64,000 bases of DNA. Origin: Nitrospirota bacterium (lineage in GTDB: Bacteria; Nitrospirota; Nitrospiria; JACQBW01). Shown here one piece after another: positions 7,583-24,781 of the stretch; positions within the stretch are counted from its first letter, which is position 1; the number at the start of each line of letters is the position of its first letter. The stretch is taken from contig JACQBW010000007.1 of assembly GCA_016194305.1 (NCBI GenBank), forward strand, positions 1 to 64,000. Direction: 5' to 3'. The position numbers and the translations under genes were made by a program. The notes under the pieces are model-generated. The model did not search any database, was not told the DNA's origin, and saw only the letters and a list, made by a program, of their open reading frames with translations.

Positions 7583-8452
7583 TCACCGCTGAATCAAAAT
7601 TGTCGGTTTCGGCATTTTTGAAGGAATCAGCGCTGTATCAAAACGATAGCCGGTTTGAAGATCGTGATAAGGGACGACGACATCTTTCGAACTAAAAACA
7701 AAGAGGTCTCTCTTCTCTTCACCCGGCGCTATTTTAACCCGGTGTACCACAGGGGTCATTAATGGATGCCAGGCAATTACATCATATTCCCCCGGCGGAA
7801 TATCTCCAATCGAAAAACTTCCCTCTTCACCCGTCACGGAAAAATAGGGATTTCCGATCGCGATGCCCCAGTTCTGCATATAAGAATGGACTCCGCACTG
7901 TACCCGGAAAATATAGTGATTGGGACGAAACCGGATCTCCTTGATTTCGGTTGAATTCGGAAGCATCGGTTTATTAAACATGGCAAAGGTGTAATCGTCT
8001 TTCAAGGTGTAGGTCTGTACATCATGGACAATCGGATCTTTGCTTTCGATCTTAATAGGATGATTGTTCCTGACCGGAGCGACAAAGGGATCGATCAGAC
8101 AATTTTCGATTTTAAGTTCCGGCGTATAATTGAATGCCTTCCCTTTTGAAACCCCGACAAACAAGACGACCACATTTTTAAATTCTCCTTTGTCAGAGAC
8201 ATGAAATTCCCTCAACAGACGATCTCCATTTCCATCGGAAATGGTGCCGCAAAATTCCATATTCGGAAAGGTAATCAAATGAAACCTCCGGGGAGGAGGC
8301 ACCACACCCGATAAGGTGACTTTTCCCGAGTATGTTCCCGCGTCTTTCACAAGGGTCTCTTCATAAGCCCACGCTTGAAACCGATTATCGGGTAACAAAA
8401 ATGCACTCATAAACAGGAGCGTTCCGCAAATGACACCCGTCAATTTAAACAT
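7583..8452 (-). CDS. Secreted cupredoxin-like protein with carboxypeptidase-regulatory-like domain (copy 1)
   Basis: About 289 aa. The ATG at 8452 follows a strong GGGAGGAG; an in-frame start at 8485 is less likely. A signal peptide leads (VICGTLLFMSAFLLP). The middle has a candidate type-1 copper site: DPIVHDV supplies one His, and C-G-V-H-S-Y-M gives Cys-x2-His-x2-Met, the amicyanin spacing. The C-terminal ~70 residues (GSFSIGDIPPGEYDVIAWHP) are a carboxypeptidase-regulatory-like beta sandwich. It is a paralogue of the gene at 9545 and last in the run behind the multicopper oxidase. It is predicted to be a periplasmic or surface electron carrier. Confidence 0.82.
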   Translation of the reverse strand: MFKLTGVICGTLLFMSAFLLPDNRFQAWAYEETLVKDAGTYSGKVTLSGVVPPPRRFHLITFPNMEFCGTISDGNGDRLLREFHVSDKGEFKNVVVLFVGVSKGKAFNYTPELKIENCLIDPFVAPVRNNHPIKIESKDPIVHDVQTYTLKDDYTFAMFNKPMLPNSTEIKEIRFRPNHYIFRVQCGVHSYMQNWGIAIGNPYFSVTGEEGSFSIGDIPPGEYDVIAWHPLMTPVVHRVKIAPGEEKRDLFVFSSKDVVVPYHDLQTGYRFDTALIPSKMPKPTILIQR

Positions 8453-8518
8453 AGTCTCTCCTCCCTTTCCTGCAGCGCTTCGCATTTAAATTTCTTCAGA
8501 ATTCATTCCGCCATCCGA

Positions 8519-9544: not shown

Positions 9545-10492
9545 CTATTTTCCGCTCTCCGGTCCCGAGCAATACGGGGGGGAACAGTCCCTGAGATTTT
9601 CATGGTGATGCGCTTCCGGGCCAATCCGGAATTTTTCCTGTATTTCGTAATTGGAATGCCGGATATCAGACGAATCAAATTCAAAATCAAGCGTGACGGT
9701 TTCATTGGATGCGATCGTAATTTCTTTTTCCACCTGTTTAAAATGAGGATGCCAGGCCGTAACTTTATATCTTCCCGCAGGAATCTGGTCAATACGAAAG
9801 AGGCCGCTTTTCTTGGTTCGATCATAGTAAGGATTGTCGACCAGATAGCCCCAGGTCTGCATAAATTCATGCATCCCGCAGATCATCTGGGCAATTCGCT
9901 TGCCGGGTTCCAGATGAATAATGCCCCCGTTTGCCTTGTCTGAAATCGGAATAGGAAAATTCAGGACGATATCCCCTCGTTCACTTTGAAATACTTGTCC
10001 ATTATGAATGATCGGGTCCTTGTTCACGACGGAGATTGTCTGGTTGTTTCGGATGACATCGACGGCCGGATGAACATGACTCAATTTTCCATTCGTAATT
10101 TCATACTGCTCATTGTCCGGGACGTTGGCCGGGTGAAACATGCAGTCGACCGCCATAAATTCGGCATTGATTTTCTGAAAGGGTTTACCGGCCTTCACAT
10201 CCTGAATTGCAATCACCGTGTCCTGCAGTCCCTTTTCAGGACCGACGATGAATTCGTTGACCACAACATTCCCCTTCCCATCGGAAATCTTTTTGCAAAA
10301 GTTTCCAAATGGATAGAGAATCAGTGGAAAGGCCCTGGAATCCGGAACCGGACCCTTGAGAGTGACTTTGCCTGTTAGATTACCTCCCAGGACGACAGGA
10401 ATGTCCCGGTACTCTGAACCCTTGACTGCATCTGGAGCAAGCCAGGCCATCCATAACAATATTCCGGCCAGACCATACATGAATACTTTCAT
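9545..10492 (-). CDS. Secreted cupredoxin-like protein with carboxypeptidase-regulatory-like domain (copy 2)
   Basis: 315 aa with a signal peptide (GLAGILLWMAWLAP). As in its paralogue at 7583, a His in DPIIHNG and the C-G-M-H-E-F-M motif give a candidate type-1 copper site. The SGLFRIDQIPAGRYKVTAWHP block marks the carboxypeptidase-regulatory-like C-terminal domain. It differs by an inserted His-containing segment (SHVHPAVDVIRN) and a His-rich tail (EAHHHENL). It lies 87 bp after the multicopper oxidase on the same strand and is a candidate redox partner of that enzyme. Confidence 0.82.
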   Translation of the reverse strand: MKVFMYGLAGILLWMAWLAPDAVKGSEYRDIPVVLGGNLTGKVTLKGPVPDSRAFPLILYPFGNFCKKISDGKGNVVVNEFIVGPEKGLQDTVIAIQDVKAGKPFQKINAEFMAVDCMFHPANVPDNEQYEITNGKLSHVHPAVDVIRNNQTISVVNKDPIIHNGQVFQSERGDIVLNFPIPISDKANGGIIHLEPGKRIAQMICGMHEFMQTWGYLVDNPYYDRTKKSGLFRIDQIPAGRYKVTAWHPHFKQVEKEITIASNETVTLDFEFDSSDIRHSNYEIQEKFRIGPEAHHHENLRDCSPPYCSGPESGK

Positions 10493-10579: not shown

Positions 10580-13500
10580 CTATTTTGACTGCTCCAGCAT
10601 TGTAACAGGAACGGAACCCGCCGGGTGTGCCGGTGGTTCTTCTGCTGTTTTGGGATTCATCATTCGGCTCCCCGCATTGATCGGAAGGAGACTCTTATCC
10701 CCAACCGGCAGGACTCTGAGATATCCCCATTGTCCGGCTTCCGCGTAAGGCATACGGTGATTCTGCCAGACATAGGTTCCCGGTAGATGGAAAGGCCCAC
10801 CTGCTCCTTCTTTAATAAAGACATCCAGATTTTCAGAGCCACCAAACTGCATTGAACTCATCATATCCGCACCTTCCATATTCGGCTTCAAGGGCCATTC
10901 GTGGCCTTCCATGCTAAATATCTGGTTTTGTTCGTCATAAGCACCGAAAACATGTATCCGAACAGGGTCGCCGGCATGGGCCGTGATGGTCGGCGTGACC
11001 GGATCCTTCTCATCGGTGACACAGGCGGTGAAGAGATTTCCCGCTTCACAACCTTTGTCCTGCCGCCAGCTCCAAGGTTCTATTCTGTAATTCACGCCTG
11101 CCAAACCAGCAATATGCTGAAGATAGGGCATGAAAGAAGTACCAATAATATTGTCTTCATCCTGGAAAAAGAGCGACGCATCGCGGTAATCCGCTTTGTC
11201 ATAATTTTCTGGTAAAGACCTGTCCACGATGACATCGACATTCCATGAATTCTTTAGACTGACGTCTTCGCCCGTTTTTGGATCGCGATAGGTCGAACCT
11301 CTCGGTCCGACGATGATTCCTCCAAAAAGACCATCTCGTACGTTGTTGAGAATATTTCCCCAATCGTAGACGATCGCCGCGGTTTCACCATATTCCGCCG
11401 GAGCAAAATAGGTATAGGTACGATGTTCTCCCGGACCAATCGTCTGGTCTCCTGGATTCAGTCCCACGTTCACTCCTTGCGAGTCTTTTGGGTCGAATGC
11501 AAGCATATCGGCACTGAATGATGCCCGGCCGGCCTTCAATTCATTTTTAAGATTGATCTTGATGCAATCGCCTACATTAACATGAAGCGTCAATGGCATC
11601 GGCTGATAATCCGAGGAGACTTTACTCTTTTCTCCTTCCAGCATAAAGATCTTCCCCTTCGGATTCGAAACCTGTAGTTTCCGGTCAAAATCTACTTCGA
11701 TCATATCCGGAGCCAGATTGTTGAATTTTAGCGCACGATCAACCGCAACCACGTTAAAGGTCTTAACGGGCGCATCCGCAGGACAGACCGAAGCGGCAGA
11801 CTGAGGAATTTCTTCATGTCCCGGAAGCGGTTTCAAATCATCCGTTTTCTTGTCCAATACCCGGATAATTCCCCAGCTCCCTTCCGAAAGATGAGACGCT
11901 CTGCCATTATAGTGGAGATAGTCCCCCGCCATCTGCTGGGCGCCACCGGCCCGAGTCACCAGGTCGTACCGTTCGGCAATGCCGACATGATAAGCATTCC
12001 TCAAATCGGAATATTGCGCATAACGTTCCGTTCGAAAGGCATGTCCTGATACGTGCCAGGTATGCGTTTCATTCATCATCACATGAAGGAGCCTGAAAAC
12101 AATTGGATCTCCCAAATAGGCCTTGAGCAAAGGGGTCGCAGGGTCCTGATTATGGTGCGCCAGACTTGAAAAGACCATGGAAGGGTCCTTGTTATCAAGC
12201 AAGCGCCTTGCCAAAGACTCGGTTCGGAAGAAGATTCCCCCTCCCGTCGTATGGGTGCCTCCGTTCAGCATCGTGTGGGAAACCATGTTCAGGTCATCCG
12301 GCATGGTAAAGGAGATCGTCTGGCCTGCATCAATCGATGCCTTGACTGTCTGACCTGGGGGGTTCCCTTCGGTGACCACCTGAGCTGTATAGGGAACGGT
12401 GTCATGCATATGAACTACCATCTCCCGGAAACTTCCCTTGGTATTGTAACCGACCGTTTCCGTCGTATGAATGTCGGCAATCGGACCGCTTCGAATCTCT
12501 TTTCCGGTCTTCGGGTCATGATAAGTCGAACCGACCGGTTCTATGATCATACTTCCTACCCCGCCATGAGGCCAGGTTGTCGCACCCAATGCGTGATCAT
12601 GCCAGAAAACTGTACCAAGATCCGAATCAACCCAATAACGATACCGAAGATATTCGGCCGAAGCGATCTCTCCCTTTTTGTGGGAATACTTTAAAGGCTC
12701 CGTAAAAGTGATCGTATCCCCCTCCATTGATTTGATCCAACGAACTTCCACTGTTTTGACTTCATGCATGCCGATCATAATATCGGCACCGACATGAAAT
12801 TTCGTGGCTCCCTCTCCCATCTGCACCTTAATACTGGAAGCACCCGCTTTTGCATCGTCGGTCAAAAGACCGTTCATGGGGGCCGGCATCCCCTTGTGTT
12901 CTTTTTTTCCAATCATGGTAAAAGGACGCACCGACTGTTCGTATGAATATCCAGTCATGACACCGTCAGACGACTGATTGTCAAATTGGATAAAATGGGG
13001 ATGAATATTGATTTTTGACATCTGAAAATTCGTGGTGTCATTGTCATTCCATTCGCTTTTCAAGATCACATCGACGCAATCGTAAACATTGGCACGATAA
13101 ACCAGCGGTCTTGCCAATTCAGGATTGGATCTTGCCGCCGCCTCTTCCTCATGAAGAACATATATTGTCCCATGCGGATCGACAACCGGTTTCTGACTTC
13201 CTAGCGCTGTTCCAAGCATGATCGGCGTCTCAATAAAGTGAATGGTATACTGCTTCCGACCAGCTCCTTCGGGACAGAGGCTCCATTTCCCCTGTTCACC
13301 CGGCTTTGCCGGCAGTGAAGTCTCTTGTCCCAAAGAACCCTCGCTTCCCGGGTCTGTCGATAGCGCGCCTGTGTTTTTCGCCACATGGAACGGCTCTAAC
13401 CAGGGCGCCGGACCATGATGCCGTGCAAAGGGGACTCTCTTGCCGAAATGCGGCTTGAAATGCGGCCACGCCAACTTCCCTGTTTTTTCCTCAAAGAGTA

Positions 13501-14674
13501 ATGGGGGCCTTTTCCCGGGCATCGGAGATTTATATTTTGGAAAGGGAAACGCCCCGGTCGCCTCCGTTTCACCCATGGCTTTATTACCATCCCAGTTCCA
13601 GTCCCATACCGTCGCGTCATAGGCCTCGATCTGACCCTTCTCATCTGCGGTGTGGCCCGGTTGACCGGCAGGAGGGAGCATCATCTTGACCCACTCTTTA
13701 ATAGAGATATCGGGGACTTGCTTTGACCAATCGGTTTTGTCAGCAGTGATATGCCATTTCTTGTTATACCAATCCACCGTCTTATCGACCAGTTTATCCG
13801 ACGTCACGGGTCCTTTCATACGCCCTTTCCGATCCGGAAGTTCTTGAAGCGGAGGCATGATATCTGTGCTGCCAAAGGGATAATTTCCGGACTGAAGCGT
13901 ATTGTAGACACGCCAATAGGTCCACATTCCGGAGACATAGTGATGCGCGACATGACAGTGCATCAAGAAATCGCCGGCCAGTTGTTGACAGAGGCCCGAT
14001 CCGCACTCAACTTGCAGATCAAGCGCTTCAGAAGGTCCGATCACCGCAACATCGACACGGTCCGAAGTGGTACGAATCACCGGATATTTCATGGGTCCGT
14101 CCGTCCCCGCATTCAACAGTTCATCCCCTTTGCCATCTGCCTTCGGCTGACGAAGCCATCGAATCGTCCCTCCATGGGGATGATGCGAATGGAAAACTTC
14201 TCCTCCGCCATGAATGAGGCGATATTTTGCCGGATCACCCATGTAGGATCTCGGTAGCGCGGTAGGGGGATCCCCAAAGGTATAGGCATTGTAGGCATGG
14301 GATTCATCTTCAAAATGGAAATATTTCTCCTGCTGCGCCAGGTTGTTCAATCCAAACGGTTCGCTTCGAAAGTTGATCGCACGGGCCGAAGGACGATAGG
14401 AGTCTGAGTTCGGATCGCGCTGAGGGATCATCTCACCATGGCGGTTCAATGGTCGGAAAGATTCATCCCCGATTTCATGATAATAAATGGTAAACTCTCT
14501 GAAATCATGGGCCATGGGATATCTTTTCTTGTCAAAGGCAATCATCATCTGCCAGCCGCTCTTGTTCCCCTTACCCGTAATCGGGTCAAGATAGATCGCC
14601 CCCATCGGTTCCACCATAAAGGCACCGATCATCCCGAGGCTGCTCGATTCGCGTCCGACATGGCTGTGAAGCAT
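10580..14674 (-). CDS. Giant multicopper oxidase, C-terminal part of a frameshifted gene
   Basis: A 1364-aa frame that is open back to 14710, where an in-frame TAA ends it. It opens inside a cupredoxin domain (WYIRPDEQEG, then MLHSHVG), so it is not a complete protein. It holds parts of six cupredoxin domains as three pairs. Pair 1 keeps HSH at the start, HSHHPH (HxxHxH) near 165 and the type-1/type-3 motif HCHVAHHYVSGM near 240. Pair 2 has HPH near 556, HDH near 690 and an altered HTWHVSGH near 870. Pair 3 has lost nearly all ligands. The size and arrangement recall large secreted oxidases of the MofA/OmpB kind (family knowledge). The N-terminal part is the next entry. Confidence 0.85.
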   Translation of the reverse strand: MLHSHVGRESSSLGMIGAFMVEPMGAIYLDPITGKGNKSGWQMMIAFDKKRYPMAHDFREFTIYYHEIGDESFRPLNRHGEMIPQRDPNSDSYRPSARAINFRSEPFGLNNLAQQEKYFHFEDESHAYNAYTFGDPPTALPRSYMGDPAKYRLIHGGGEVFHSHHPHGGTIRWLRQPKADGKGDELLNAGTDGPMKYPVIRTTSDRVDVAVIGPSEALDLQVECGSGLCQQLAGDFLMHCHVAHHYVSGMWTYWRVYNTLQSGNYPFGSTDIMPPLQELPDRKGRMKGPVTSDKLVDKTVDWYNKKWHITADKTDWSKQVPDISIKEWVKMMLPPAGQPGHTADEKGQIEAYDATVWDWNWDGNKAMGETEATGAFPFPKYKSPMPGKRPPLLFEEKTGKLAWPHFKPHFGKRVPFARHHGPAPWLEPFHVAKNTGALSTDPGSEGSLGQETSLPAKPGEQGKWSLCPEGAGRKQYTIHFIETPIMLGTALGSQKPVVDPHGTIYVLHEEEAAARSNPELARPLVYRANVYDCVDVILKSEWNDNDTTNFQMSKINIHPHFIQFDNQSSDGVMTGYSYEQSVRPFTMIGKKEHKGMPAPMNGLLTDDAKAGASSIKVQMGEGATKFHVGADIMIGMHEVKTVEVRWIKSMEGDTITFTEPLKYSHKKGEIASAEYLRYRYWVDSDLGTVFWHDHALGATTWPHGGVGSMIIEPVGSTYHDPKTGKEIRSGPIADIHTTETVGYNTKGSFREMVVHMHDTVPYTAQVVTEGNPPGQTVKASIDAGQTISFTMPDDLNMVSHTMLNGGTHTTGGGIFFRTESLARRLLDNKDPSMVFSSLAHHNQDPATPLLKAYLGDPIVFRLLHVMMNETHTWHVSGHAFRTERYAQYSDLRNAYHVGIAERYDLVTRAGGAQQMAGDYLHYNGRASHLSEGSWGIIRVLDKKTDDLKPLPGHEEIPQSAASVCPADAPVKTFNVVAVDRALKFNNLAPDMIEVDFDRKLQVSNPKGKIFMLEGEKSKVSSDYQPMPLTLHVNVGDCIKINLKNELKAGRASFSADMLAFDPKDSQGVNVGLNPGDQTIGPGEHRTYTYFAPAEYGETAAIVYDWGNILNNVRDGLFGGIIVGPRGSTYRDPKTGEDVSLKNSWNVDVIVDRSLPENYDKADYRDASLFFQDEDNIIGTSFMPYLQHIAGLAGVNYRIEPWSWRQDKGCEAGNLFTACVTDEKDPVTPTITAHAGDPVRIHVFGAYDEQNQIFSMEGHEWPLKPNMEGADMMSSMQFGGSENLDVFIKEGAGGPFHLPGTYVWQNHRMPYAEAGQWGYLRVLPVGDKSLLPINAGSRMMNPKTAEEPPAHPAGSVPVTMLEQSK

Positions 14675-15354
14675 GTGGGCCCCTTCCTGTTCGTCTGGAC
14701 GGATATACCATTATTGATACAATCACCCTGGCTTCCACGAATTGTAAGGGGTTGAATTAAATTAGTTTGTTCTCCATTGTCCACGGCACCTGGATCGTTG
14801 TCGTGGGCCCTCGCTTCTTTATTCTTTTTCTCTTCTTCTCTTACTTTTTGAAGATTTTCAGTCAGCACATACATAAAACCAGGATGATAATCGCCCCATT
14901 GATTAAGAGTAATCTCGACATTAATCGCGGTCACGTCAAATTCTTTTTTAAGTGCGCCAGCCGGACAATGGCCTCCGCCTGTCACCGTTTCGCTCACCGT
15001 TCCAGGTCCAAGAAAGAAACTACGGTCCATTTGCTGCATCGTGGACATTTCCTGAAAGGGTCCCGCAGCATGCTCTTTATGTTTCCCGCCCGAGATTTCT
15101 TCCATCAATTTGTTCATGGCAGCGTCAATCTTTGCCGAATCGCCGCTTTTACCTTCATAGGATTCCTCCTGCTCGATCTGTTTCTTCAATTTAACCTGCC
15201 AGGATGAATCTTCTTCGGCCGCCGTCGCAACAACCTGATGGTGATGTTCTTCTCCTGCAAGGGCAATTCTTACCGCAAGCGGATTTGTCAACCCGGATAG
15301 AAACATCAATAAAGCAATAATCGGGAACATTCTGCTCAAGAGCCCGCTGATCAT
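14629..15354 (-). pseudogene. Giant multicopper oxidase, N-terminal fragment ending in a frameshift
   Basis: A 241-aa frame with a good start (AGGAG 6 nt before the ATG) and a signal peptide (MFPIIALLMFLSGLTNPLAV), then His residues and a charged helical region. A cupredoxin domain begins near residue 130 (FDVTAINVEITLNQWGDYHP) and reaches LTIRGSQGDCINN. From there the frame is wrong: the last ~30 residues are shifted reading of the same DNA whose other frame gives YIRPDEQEGAHMLHSHVG. One extra base near 14710 would rejoin the frames, but the strands and HxHG copper motif expected between GDC and WYI would still be missing. Confidence 0.8.
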
Positions 15355-15605: not shown

Positions 15606-16997
15606 TCAGGAAGTGGAGAGATGTTCTGATTCAGTTCGATGTTGACGCATTTTATTATAAAGTGTCGCCCGGCTGATACCGAGAAGTTTGGCAGCCTGCG
15701 TTCTATTTCCATTCGCCTTTTTCATCGCAATCGCGATTCTTTCTCTTTCCAGGATCTGAATCGCAAAATGAGTGGATTCCTGAAGCGGATCGATCGATTC
15801 GTCTTCCGCCGACCGCTCGCTAAATAGCGCTTCCAGTCTGATTTCATTTCCGGGGCTGATCAATACCGCTCTTTCTATGACATTTTCAAGTTCGCGGACA
15901 TTTCCGTGCCAGGGATAATCCATGAGAATCTTCATGACCTGAGGCGAAATCAGTTTCGGCAATAATGCGTTGTGTTCGCAATATTTTTTTATAAAATGAT
16001 CCACCAGAAGAGGGATATCCTCCTTGCGTTCCTTGAGCGACGGAAGAAGGACCGGAACGACCGCCAGGCGATAATACAGATCCTCACGGAAAGTCTTCTT
16101 TTTAACCCCCTCCCGAAGGTCTTTATTGGTTGCGGCCACCACCCGGACATCGACATGAACGCTTTTGTTGCTCCCTACCGGTTTAAATTCACTCTCCTGG
16201 AGAACTCTCAGAAGTTTGGATTGAAAGGCGATCGTGGTATCGCCAATTTCATCCAGCAGGAGCGTCCCGCCATCCGCCTCTTCAAACAGACCTTTCTTAT
16301 TGCTAATCGCACCTGTAAAAGAACCCCTCACATGACCAAACAATTCACTCTCCAGGAGCGTTTCAGGAAGCGCGCCGCAGTCTACCGTCACAAACGGGCG
16401 TTCTCTCCGGGGGGAATTAAAATGTATGGCTCGAGCGATCAACTCTTTACCTGTTCCCGATTCTCCATTGATTAATATGGTCGTATTGCTGTACGCCACC
16501 ATTTTGATCATTCTAAAAAGGGATCGCATCCGGGGGCTTTGTCCGATAATATCCTTAAAATCCTTGTTCACTTCCACTTTTTCTCGAAGCTGTTCCACTT
16601 CCAGTTTCAGATGATAGATTTCGAGCGCTTTCTTGACGACCAGCTTGACTTCGTCGTTATTAACCGGCTTGGTCAGGTAGTCAAACGCCCCTTCTTTCAT
16701 CGCAGAGACCGCCGTATCCACCGTTCCAAAGGCAGTCAACAGGATTACCAGCGTGTTCGGTGCTTTCTCTTTCACTTTTTTAAGGAGTTGAATGCCGTCC
16801 ATACCCCCCATTTTCAAATCAGAGATGACCAGATCAAACGGATCTGTCTCCAAACGCCTGACCGCCTCTTCTCCTGACGAAGCGCTCTCGACCTGATACC
16901 CCTCTTTTGCCAGAATCTTTTTAAAGAGAGCTCTCATATTCGGCTCGTCATCAACGACCAGAATTCGGTCAGCGGATGGAAGATTTCTGGTATTCAT
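15606..16997 (-). CDS. Sigma54-dependent response regulator (NtrC/AtoC family)
   Basis: 463 aa. Receiver domain 11-125 has acidic DDE, the phospho-acceptor in VISDLKM and LLTAFG. An AAA+ sigma54-activation domain (~145-380) has Walker A GESGTGKE, a GSFTGA loop (Ser in place of the usual Ala of GAFTGA) and Walker B LLLDEIGD. A Fis-type HTH closes the protein (NRTQAAKLLGISRATLYNKM). Its start overlaps the kinase stop by 4 nt (ATGA), so the pair is coupled. It sits directly upstream of the multicopper oxidase gene on the same strand and may regulate it, although I found no clear -24/-12 site in 15355-15605. Confidence 0.95.
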   Translation of the reverse strand: MNTRNLPSADRILVVDDEPNMRALFKKILAKEGYQVESASSGEEAVRRLETDPFDLVISDLKMGGMDGIQLLKKVKEKAPNTLVILLTAFGTVDTAVSAMKEGAFDYLTKPVNNDEVKLVVKKALEIYHLKLEVEQLREKVEVNKDFKDIIGQSPRMRSLFRMIKMVAYSNTTILINGESGTGKELIARAIHFNSPRRERPFVTVDCGALPETLLESELFGHVRGSFTGAISNKKGLFEEADGGTLLLDEIGDTTIAFQSKLLRVLQESEFKPVGSNKSVHVDVRVVAATNKDLREGVKKKTFREDLYYRLAVVPVLLPSLKERKEDIPLLVDHFIKKYCEHNALLPKLISPQVMKILMDYPWHGNVRELENVIERAVLISPGNEIRLEALFSERSAEDESIDPLQESTHFAIQILERERIAIAMKKANGNRTQAAKLLGISRATLYNKMRQHRTESEHLSTS

Positions 16998-18172
16998 TTT
17001 TCCACTTCCTTCTTTTTGACAGGAAAATAGAGATAGAAAATCGTCCCTTTTCCCGGACTGCTTTCAACGGCCATCCTGCCCCCATGTCCCTTCATGATAC
17101 TTTCGCAAATGGATAATCCAAGTCCCATCCCTTTCGTCTGCTTGGTTGTAAAAAAAGTGCGGAAGATTTTAGGAAGATCATTCGGTTGGATGCCGGATCC
17201 TGTATCTTCGACCCTGATGACCACTTCGTTGGATCCCGGCGCCAGACCATGTCCGCGGATCTCTTCTCGATCACTCTGATCAATCTCTCCGCCTACGGTC
17301 AATTCCCCCCCATCCGGCATGGCTTCAATCGCGTTAAAGAAAAGATTCACCAGGACCTGCATCACCTGCTGGGGATCCGCCCAGATCTGCGGAAGTTCAT
17401 CCTGGGTTGTAACGGAAGTCTGAATCTTTTGTTTGAGAGCTTGTCCCGAAATGAGATCGACGGCTTTGCGAATCACCTGGGTGACATCCACCTCGGCAAA
17501 CTGGGAGGGAGTCGGTCGTCCGAATTCCATCAAATCCCGCATGATTTTCTTGCAGCGGCGGGCCTCTTCTTCGATAATTTTCAGGGAATGATAACGGGGA
17601 TCACCCGGGTCGACTTCCGTCAACAGGTCCTGGGTAAAACCGAGAACAATCCCGAGGGGATTATTAAATTCATGGGCAATTGAAGCGGCCATCTCTCCTA
17701 TCGAGACCAGTCTTTCGGAGCTGATGAGCTGTTGCTCCATCTCCTTTTCACGCGTGACATCTTTCGCGATTTCGACCACCCATTTCACCGCTTTCCCGGA
17801 GTCATTCCGATCGGTCTTCACCGGCATGAGGAGCAGTTCCTCAAAACAGGCTTCCCGGGTTTGAACGTTCTGATCTTTAAGCAGCACAAAACCGGCTTCG
17901 CCCCGTTCAAATGTTTTTAGCGCGGGACAGTAAGTACAGGGCTCCTCCTTATTATAAAAAACCTGATAGCATTTCCCGCCATTTTCATGGTAACCCCGTA
18001 TTCCGTTCGGACTGCGACGTGCCGCCGCGGAATTAATATAAAGGACATTAAACTGATGATCAATGATTTCAATCGCCTCCGGGAAACCATCCAGGACAGC
18101 CTGAAACAGCTGTTCCCGCTCTTCCAGGACTCGAAGACGTTCAATCAAATTCTGATCTTTTGAATGCGGCAT
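16994..18172 (-). CDS. PAS-domain sensor histidine kinase
   Basis: 392 aa, with no membrane segment, so it senses in the cytoplasm. A PAS domain (~20-135) carries a Cys cluster (CYQVFYNKEEPCTYCP) seen in PAS domains of redox-type sensors. The phosphoacceptor His lies in ASIAHEFNNPLG near 165. The ATPase domain has NLFFNAIEAMPDGG (N box), EDTGSGI (G1) and GMGLGLSI (G2). It is coupled to the sigma54 regulator at 16994-16997. The Cys cluster suggests redox or metal sensing (inference). Confidence 0.93.
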   Translation of the reverse strand: MPHSKDQNLIERLRVLEEREQLFQAVLDGFPEAIEIIDHQFNVLYINSAAARRSPNGIRGYHENGGKCYQVFYNKEEPCTYCPALKTFERGEAGFVLLKDQNVQTREACFEELLLMPVKTDRNDSGKAVKWVVEIAKDVTREKEMEQQLISSERLVSIGEMAASIAHEFNNPLGIVLGFTQDLLTEVDPGDPRYHSLKIIEEEARRCKKIMRDLMEFGRPTPSQFAEVDVTQVIRKAVDLISGQALKQKIQTSVTTQDELPQIWADPQQVMQVLVNLFFNAIEAMPDGGELTVGGEIDQSDREEIRGHGLAPGSNEVVIRVEDTGSGIQPNDLPKIFRTFFTTKQTKGMGLGLSICESIMKGHGGRMAVESSPGKGTIFYLYFPVKKKEVEK

Positions 18173-22255: not shown

Positions 22256-22285
22256 AATGCATTTCATTTGAAGAAGGAGCAAACC

Positions 22286-24781
22286 ATGACACCGCCCAAT
22301 GCACTCCAGGAGAAGAAAGAGGCCGCGGGAAAGATTCCCCATGACCTTTTAACCGAGATTGAATCGTTTGAAGCGCAGGTTGAAAAAGTCCGCCAGGGAA
22401 AAATCTCTCTGGATCAGTTCAGACCTTTCAGGCTTCAACACGGTATTTATGGACAACGTCAGACGAATGTGCAGATGTTCCGGGTTAAAATTCCCTATGG
22501 AGGATTGAATTCGGACCAGATGGACCGCCTGGCGGATATCGCCGAAGAACATACCAACGGAATCCTCCACACCACGACTCGACAGGATATTCAGCTTCAC
22601 TGGATTTCTCTCTCAAAATGCGGCGAAATCATGAGAAAAATTACCGAAGTGGGACTGACCACACGGGAGGCTTGTGGAAATACGATCAGAAACGTGACTG
22701 GATGCCATAAAGCCGGAGTCTGTCCCTCTGAGGCCTTTGACGTTTCCCCTTATGCCGGAGCCATTTCAAAACATTTCTTGCGAAACCCTGTCTGCCAGAG
22801 CATGCCCAGGAAATTCAAAATCAGTTTTTCGGGATGCGCGACCGCCTGCGCGCTCCCCGGAATTCACGATATCGGGCTGGTTGCTGAAAAAAGAATATCA
22901 GCCGACCAGAAAGAAATTCTGGGATTCAAGGTGTTCGCAGGGGGAGGATTGGGGGCAATGCCAAGAGTCGCCCATCTTCTTGAAGATTTTATCCCCACCA
23001 CGGAACTGACCCGCGTATGCGAAGCTATTGTCCGTGTGTTCGACCGATTTGGAAACAGAAAAAATAGAAACCGGGCCCGATTGAAATTTGTCATCGATAA
23101 ACTGGGAATGGCTCAATTTAATAAACTCTATAAAGTGGAGTACGAAAAGCTCGCTCAAAAGGCCGAAATGACTTTTGGGCTCCCATCGCTGCAGCACGAA
23201 AACGGATCCGCGCTCCCTTCCTCCGGAAAGGGTCTGGAAAACGGTCATGCCAAAGAGAACGGAAACGATTATGACTACTGGTTATCCACCAACGTGGAAC
23301 CTCAAAAACAGTCCGGGTTTTCGATGGTTCAGGTCCGTCTCATCCTCGGAGACATTCAAGCTTCGGAATTCCGGCAGGTCGCGGAGATCGCGCGACAATA
23401 TGCCGGAGGAAATTCACGCATTACAATCAATCAGAACCTGTTACTCCGCTGGGTGAAAAATGAAAATCTTCCCCGGGTTTATGAGGCTCTTAAAAAAGCC
23501 GGACTGGCAAAGGGGGGTGCGGAAACCATGAGCGATATCGTCTCCTGTCCGGGAGCAGATACCTGTGGCATCGCGATCACCTCTTCCAAGCAGATGGCCA
23601 CCAGCTTGTCTAAATCGCTGGGTAACGGATCAGGAGAAAGTTCCGGTCTTGACGGCATCAGAATCAAAATCAGCGGGTGTCAGAATTCCTGCGGACAGCA
23701 CCATATGGCGCCCATCGGATTGCACGGGGTTAGCAAAACCATCGGAGAACACACCGCGCCGTTTTATGAACTCCATCTTGGAGGCCGCGATTCGGCCGAA
23801 GGGACGACTTTTGCCAAGGCAATTACCAAGATTCCGGCCAAAAACGTCCCGTTGGCCGTTGAAAAAGTTCTTTCACTTTACCGGGAAAAACGACTGGAAG
23901 GCGAAAGCTTTGTCCAGTTTACGGACCGATTCGGCAAGAAAGGCTTTACGGAAGAACTTAAGCCGCTTATTCAACTCCCCTCTTTTGAAGAAAAACCCCA
24001 GTTTTACTACGACTGGGGAGGGACCCGGGAATTTGAGGTGGTTGACCTGGGACCGGGAGAATGCGCGGGAGGAGCGGACGCGATGATCAAGACCAGCTTC
24101 GACGAAGCCGAAGCGGAATTGGCTATTGCTCGGGAACAGAATGAAAATCAACAGGGGGCATTTGCCCTGTCAAAAGCTTATCGGGCCGTCGTTGCCGGAA
24201 TTAAAGGAATGCTCATCCTGAAGGGACTCGAACCGGCAACCGACACTGAAGCGTTTCAGGCTTTTCACGAACATTATCTGAAAAAGGGTGCTTTCTCGGG
24301 AAAATTTGGTGATTTTTCCACTTTTGTCGAGAAATTGGAACGAGGCGGACACCCGTCGTCCGCCGAGGTCTCGCAGGATATCGCACGGGTCGGAACTTTC
24401 CTCGAGGAGTGCCGGATCTTGTACGCCCTCTCCGATTCAGAATTAAAACCGGCGGCGGCCAAAACGGAGCATGAAAGTGAGGACGCCAAAGCGACGCGCC
24501 AGATTGAAACGGCAAAAAAAGAGGCCGTTGAAGAAGCCGAAAAACTCATCGAAATTGTTCCCAATGCAAAAATGGATTTAAGGGGAGTAAAATGCCCCAT
24601 TAATTTCGTACGAACAAAATTAAAACTGGAAATGATGGATTCCGGAGAAATTCTCGAAGTTCTTCTGGACGAAGGAGAACCGGCCGAAAACGTCCCGAGG
24701 TCCGTAAAGGATGAGGGGAATCAGGTCCTGGGTCTCTCGCAAATTGATCATTATTTTAAGCTCGTAATTAAAAAGCCGTAA
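22286..24781 (+). CDS. Sulfite (nitrite/sulfite) reductase, siroheme type, fused to a C-terminal TusA domain
   Basis: About 831 aa; ATG at 22286 follows AAGGAG by 6 nt. Two nitrite/sulfite-reductase half repeats fill residues ~40-560. Each holds a C-x5-C and C-x3-C pair: GCHKAGVC and GCATAC in the first half, SCPGADTC and GCQNSC in the second. Usually only one half keeps them. Residues ~575-740 are a helical region resembling HEPN-type domains. The last ~75 residues are TusA-like (MDLRGVKCPINFVRTKLKLE, with the Cys-Pro motif). It reduces sulfite to sulfide; the TusA tail suggests the sulfur may be handed on as a persulfide (inference). Confidence 0.85.
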   Translation: MTPPNALQEKKEAAGKIPHDLLTEIESFEAQVEKVRQGKISLDQFRPFRLQHGIYGQRQTNVQMFRVKIPYGGLNSDQMDRLADIAEEHTNGILHTTTRQDIQLHWISLSKCGEIMRKITEVGLTTREACGNTIRNVTGCHKAGVCPSEAFDVSPYAGAISKHFLRNPVCQSMPRKFKISFSGCATACALPGIHDIGLVAEKRISADQKEILGFKVFAGGGLGAMPRVAHLLEDFIPTTELTRVCEAIVRVFDRFGNRKNRNRARLKFVIDKLGMAQFNKLYKVEYEKLAQKAEMTFGLPSLQHENGSALPSSGKGLENGHAKENGNDYDYWLSTNVEPQKQSGFSMVQVRLILGDIQASEFRQVAEIARQYAGGNSRITINQNLLLRWVKNENLPRVYEALKKAGLAKGGAETMSDIVSCPGADTCGIAITSSKQMATSLSKSLGNGSGESSGLDGIRIKISGCQNSCGQHHMAPIGLHGVSKTIGEHTAPFYELHLGGRDSAEGTTFAKAITKIPAKNVPLAVEKVLSLYREKRLEGESFVQFTDRFGKKGFTEELKPLIQLPSFEEKPQFYYDWGGTREFEVVDLGPGECAGGADAMIKTSFDEAEAELAIAREQNENQQGAFALSKAYRAVVAGIKGMLILKGLEPATDTEAFQAFHEHYLKKGAFSGKFGDFSTFVEKLERGGHPSSAEVSQDIARVGTFLEECRILYALSDSELKPAAAKTEHESEDAKATRQIETAKKEAVEEAEKLIEIVPNAKMDLRGVKCPINFVRTKLKLEMMDSGEILEVLLDEGEPAENVPRSVKDEGNQVLGLSQIDHYFKLVIKKP

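Follow-up and report, generated by a model that had tools for sequence, protein, structure and literature searches.

Probable recent inactivation by deletion of one of two paralogous giant multicopper oxidase genes in a Nitrospirota lineage

We analyzed a window of 64,000 nucleotides from the genome (37 contigs, 95% complete) of an uncultured Nitrospirota bacterium and identified a giant six-domain multicopper oxidase gene that is encoded in two reading frames and lies in the interior of a 188-kb contig. The gene, its parts and its closest neighbors are as follows:

16994-18172, minus strand: histidine kinase, intact, syntenic upstream neighbor (NCBIfam)
15606-16997, minus strand: NtrC-type response regulator, intact, syntenic upstream neighbor (NCBIfam)
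15354→10580, minus strand: giant six-domain multicopper oxidase gene, encoded in two frames
14719-15354, minus strand: 5' part of the oxidase, with signal peptide, N-terminal region and the opening strands of cupredoxin domain 1 as far as GDC (ORF list, tblastn)
14710-14718, minus strand: putative deletion junction, 142 nt gone (alignment with intact copies G000:C5, G001:C53, G002:C33 and G002:C46, and anchor spacing)
10580-14710, minus strand: oxidase remainder, comprising the last part of domain 1 and domains 2-6, open in the other frame (ORF list, paralogue alignment)
9545-10492, minus strand: secreted cupredoxin-like protein, intact, downstream of the oxidase (Pfam)

The first ATG of the oxidase gene is preceded by a good ribosome-binding sequence, GGAGAGGAG. 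As seen in both the ORF list and the sequence, the reading frame splits at 14710-14718. The upstream frame (14629-15354, minus strand) stays in register up to ...LTIRGSQGDCINN, with the GDC of domain 1 at 14719-14727, after which the same frame runs out of register as far as 14629; tblastn with the intact paralogue from the same genome matches residues 30-232 to 15318-14716 (72% identity). The second frame opens after a TAA at 14711-14713, reading WYIRPDEQEGAHMLHSHVG, and extends from its first residues, WYIRPDEQ, over 1376 codons to the gene end. A sequence-only reading of this DNA had placed the two ends at these points and assigned both frames to one gene; the 142-nt gap and the anchor spacing described below bear this out and attribute the split to a missing, frame-shifting segment.

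The intact paralogue (G000:C5:8567-13540, 1657 aa; G000 is the window genome, and G001 and G002 belong to the same family) is 86% identical to the body of the window oxidase over 1376 aa, with no internal stop or further frame break in the 4.1 kb of coding DNA left in the latter. At the DNA level, where identity is only ~75%, the alignment of the two copies contains a single 142-nt gap, located at the junction. Two fixed anchor words are 202 nt apart in four intact copies from three genomes (G000:C5, G001:C53, G002:C33 and G002:C46) and 60 nt apart in the window; the breakpoints are exact only to within a few bases. Because 142 nt correspond to 47 codons plus one nucleotide, the missing block, ~47 residues including HIHG, explains both the lost residues and the change of frame, and this count by alignment matches the earlier estimate of about 45 or more residues with an HxHG motif.

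In G000:C5, the stretch from the G of GDC to WYI spans 53 residues, with GLHIHGSS inside. The spacing from GDC to W is 53-64 residues in all 66 homologue segments from the class, a set that excludes the window copy and in which a few rows represent one gene entered twice. Since the block is retained in 66/66 segments, the window copy carries a lesion, and a natural variant without the block, the check suggested by the sequence-only reading, is ruled out for this sample. The window copy shows two features of a recent pseudogene, a frame disrupted relative to its homologues and an intact paralogue in the same genome.

These observations are best explained by a recent deletion that put one member of a paralogous pair of oxidase genes out of action in this Nitrospirota lineage, a reading to which we assign a probability of about 0.78. 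The frame-shifting loss of 142 nt would have put domains 2-6 out of frame with the signal peptide and the beginning of domain 1, and would have taken about 47 residues out of the domain-1 cupredoxin barrel. With the export signal and the body in different frames and these residues missing, loss of function would be expected, presumably through the frame break and the damage to domain 1 rather than through loss of a catalytic copper ligand. The intact paralogue would probably make this loss tolerable, and given that second copy, the event resembles the ordinary case in which a duplicated gene has recently been lost.

Alternatively, something useful could still be made from the locus, such as an oxidase that starts at 14674 with domain 1 truncated, or a full-length one produced by frameshifting. 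Domains 2-6 and all copper motifs of domains 2 and 3 are intact and conserved, and the first in-frame ATG of the remainder, at 14674, follows soon after the junction with the purine-rich GGAAGGGG directly 5' of it. However, a product restarted there would have no signal peptide, unlike the intact copies, which carry one at their start as judged by eye, and part of its domain-1 barrel would be missing; furthermore, none of the 66 homologue segments is without the block, and no evidence was found for programmed frameshifting. We therefore regard a functional variant as highly improbable.

The window oxidase and its paralogue can be classed by sequence as bacterial six-domain MnxG-like multicopper oxidases: phmmer with the intact paralogue retrieved MnxG, the manganese-oxidizing six-domain multicopper oxidase of Bacillus (PDB 9bxa, chain 9bxa_A, E 2.5e-84), and the window copy contains the four motifs expected of this type, FHSHHPH, HCHVAHHYVSGM, NIHPH and WHDH. 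MnxG shares with the window family HCH...GM in domain 2, and its domain 3 has HIH and HDH. In contrast, domain 1 of MnxG has no HxH, or no complete HxH set, whereas domain 1 in the window lineage carries an extra HxHG/HSH; the window family is also longer (about 1650 residues vs 1227), and its scores against the MnxG equivalog NF041487 (107 bits for the paralogue, 106 bits for the window body) are far below the cut-off of 3100 bits. A literature search found no work treating MnxG, cryo-EM and trinuclear together. The copper motifs that remain in the window copy are the following:

14654-14668, minus strand: second motif of domain 1, HSHVG, retained, not conserved across the class (motif coordinates)
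14174-14194, minus strand: domain-2 FHSHHPH, candidate trinuclear/type-1 ligands, intact, present in 65/65 covering homologue segments
13925-13960, minus strand: domain-2 HCHVAHHYVSGM, with ligands of the type-1 and trinuclear sites, intact, these residues invariant or almost invariant among homologues
12995-13009, minus strand: domain-3 NIHPH, candidate trinuclear ligands, intact, both His invariant
12590-12604, minus strand: domain-3 WHDHA, candidate trinuclear ligands, intact, invariant

The sequence-only reading had taken domains 1 and 2 as the catalytic pair and concluded that the lesion takes away a single arm of the trinuclear copper site and leaves the rest. Conservation argues otherwise: all four His of the domain-1 HxHG/HSH set are found in only 33 of the 66 homologue segments, and intact homologues show VIQASS, NIHGSS, FHSYSN and FHSWSH, among others, whereas the ligands of FHSHHPH, HCHVAxHYVxGM, NxHxH and WHDH in domains 2 and 3 are kept across 28 full or near-full sequences. 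The comparison with MnxG points the same way, as does a survey of six-domain copper proteins, according to which every bacterial six-domain oxidase analyzed has its trinuclear site between domains 2 and 3, while residual ligands persist between domains 1 and 6 (PMC3600357). In the present family, domain 6 lacks an HxH/HCH set that could pair with domain 1. An AlphaFold2 model of domains 1-4 of the intact paralogue (mean pLDDT 52, pTM 0.40) was too poor for copper-site geometry.

Thus, the trinuclear site of this oxidase is expected to lie between domains 2 and 3, untouched by the deletion, and the lost stretch is probably outside the catalytic copper site. Given the variable domain-1 His, the MnxG comparison, the published survey and the lack of a partner set in domain 6, the lost HIHG is most likely a relic half-site. 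It is very doubtful that the domain-1 HxHG/HSH motifs form a second functional copper site that was specifically lost here while the domain-2/3 center was kept; the set is complete in the lineage around the window genome, but elsewhere in the class many members no longer have it. More generally, a canonical-looking domain-1 HxHG in six-domain oxidases should not be taken as evidence of a catalytic trinuclear site, because this motif varies among intact homologues and the domain-2/3 motifs do not.

We then considered the state of the remainder. Among 337 otherwise invariant positions, the window copy departs at one, an A-to-S change in HCHVAHHYVSGM, beside the ligands, and intact copies of the same close group show 0-5 such departures. 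The window copy has no long terminal branch in the gene tree, and the dN of its branch, about 0.04-0.05, is not above that of intact sister genes (synonymous distances to this copy have reached saturation). Hence, neither the invariant positions nor dN show the excess of change that relaxed selection on the remainder would leave, and an old pseudogene is rejected. With a remainder so conserved, the lesion would be either very recent or not real; the break looks recent, one of the two options of the sequence-only reading, yet an artefact would produce the same pattern.

Such an artefact could be a block dropped during assembly, polishing or gap closing, or a minority deleted strain represented in the contig, with the gene intact in most cells. 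The rest of the gene would be equally undecayed had a working gene been misassembled; moreover, many assemblies of the class are disrupted by giant oxidase genes, in which a good many contigs begin or end, and frame-broken copies occur in other fragmented genomes too. However, the gene here is internal to its long contig, ten neighboring genes checked with NCBIfam look full length, and DNA identity to the paralogue is no more than about 75%. No repeats lie near the junction, with no direct repeat of at least 10 nt at the site, and the longest word shared by the flanks in the four intact copies is 6 nt. Homology of the left flank extends through GATTGTATC and that of the right flank begins at AATGG, which leaves no room for a repeat of k-mer length. 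Of the local assembly collapse offered as an option by the sequence-only reading, the repeat-driven form therefore finds no support at the junction; other artefacts keep some probability, and we consider them unlikely overall.

In the gene tree, the window copy adjoins (G000:C5, (G002:C33, G001:C83)). The succession of genes at the window locus (kinase, NtrC regulator, oxidase, cupredoxin-like protein, TPR) makes it the counterpart of G002:C33 and G001:C53/C83: the kinase and the NtrC regulator stand in the same order beside the oxidase in G001:C53 and G002:C33, and a relative of the 9545-10492 protein follows the oxidase in G001:C83, G002:C33 and G002:C46. Tree and gene order disagree in that the tree joins G002:C33 and G001:C83 with G000:C5 instead of the window copy. 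GC3 is 0.52 in the window copy and 0.62 in G000:C5. The proteins at 9545-10492 and 7583-8485 (minus strand), near the oxidase, are related secreted proteins with a CxxH...M-like motif whose relatives accompany the oxidase in other genomes, and the motif makes them possible blue-copper partners.

The second paralogue G002:C46 corresponds in G001, a member of the same family but another genus, to a remnant at C29 (L033:1137-2119). Like the window copy, this remnant has lost the block between IQPL and QEG through a deletion of 3n+1 nucleotides, with the same effect on the frame. Unlike the window copy, it represents the paralogue syntenic with G002:C46, its deletion measures 184 nt with other breakpoints, and a further large in-frame deletion lies in its middle. 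A deletion inherited in common is ruled out by the differences in paralogue, breakpoints and length, and the different breakpoints indicate independent events. The other giant oxidase remains in both genomes, intact at G000:C5 and, in G001, split over the contig ends C53 and C83. Thus, loss of one of the two giant oxidase copies can occur in this family and has apparently done so more than once. The cupredoxin-like gene downstream of the C29 remnant is also fragmentary. Elsewhere, giant oxidases with frame changes or missing stretches, located at other positions of the gene, were seen at L098 (G025:C41), L099 (G033:C7), L100 (G025:C64) and L101 (G004:C28), which could reflect decay or assembly faults.

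Homologues, at least one copy each, are present in nearly all genomes of class Nitrospiria. Two novel multicopper oxidases have been reported in each genome of Candidatus Manganitrophaceae (PMC9040806); the likeness to the window oxidase holds at class level, with a homologue in a Manganitrophaceae MAG (L049, best segment 80%). Compared by description only, the window genome may have a similar pair, except that one of its two copies is broken. The loss bears on organisms considered as possible manganese lithotrophs, whose giant oxidases have no assigned function.

Elsewhere in the window, 22268-24781 (plus strand) encodes a sulfite/nitrite-reductase-like protein that carries a TusA/YedF-like domain at its C terminus and belongs to a run that also includes AprA, a small AprB-like ferredoxin and Sat, and an IS110-family transposase lies at the contig start (111-1130, plus strand).
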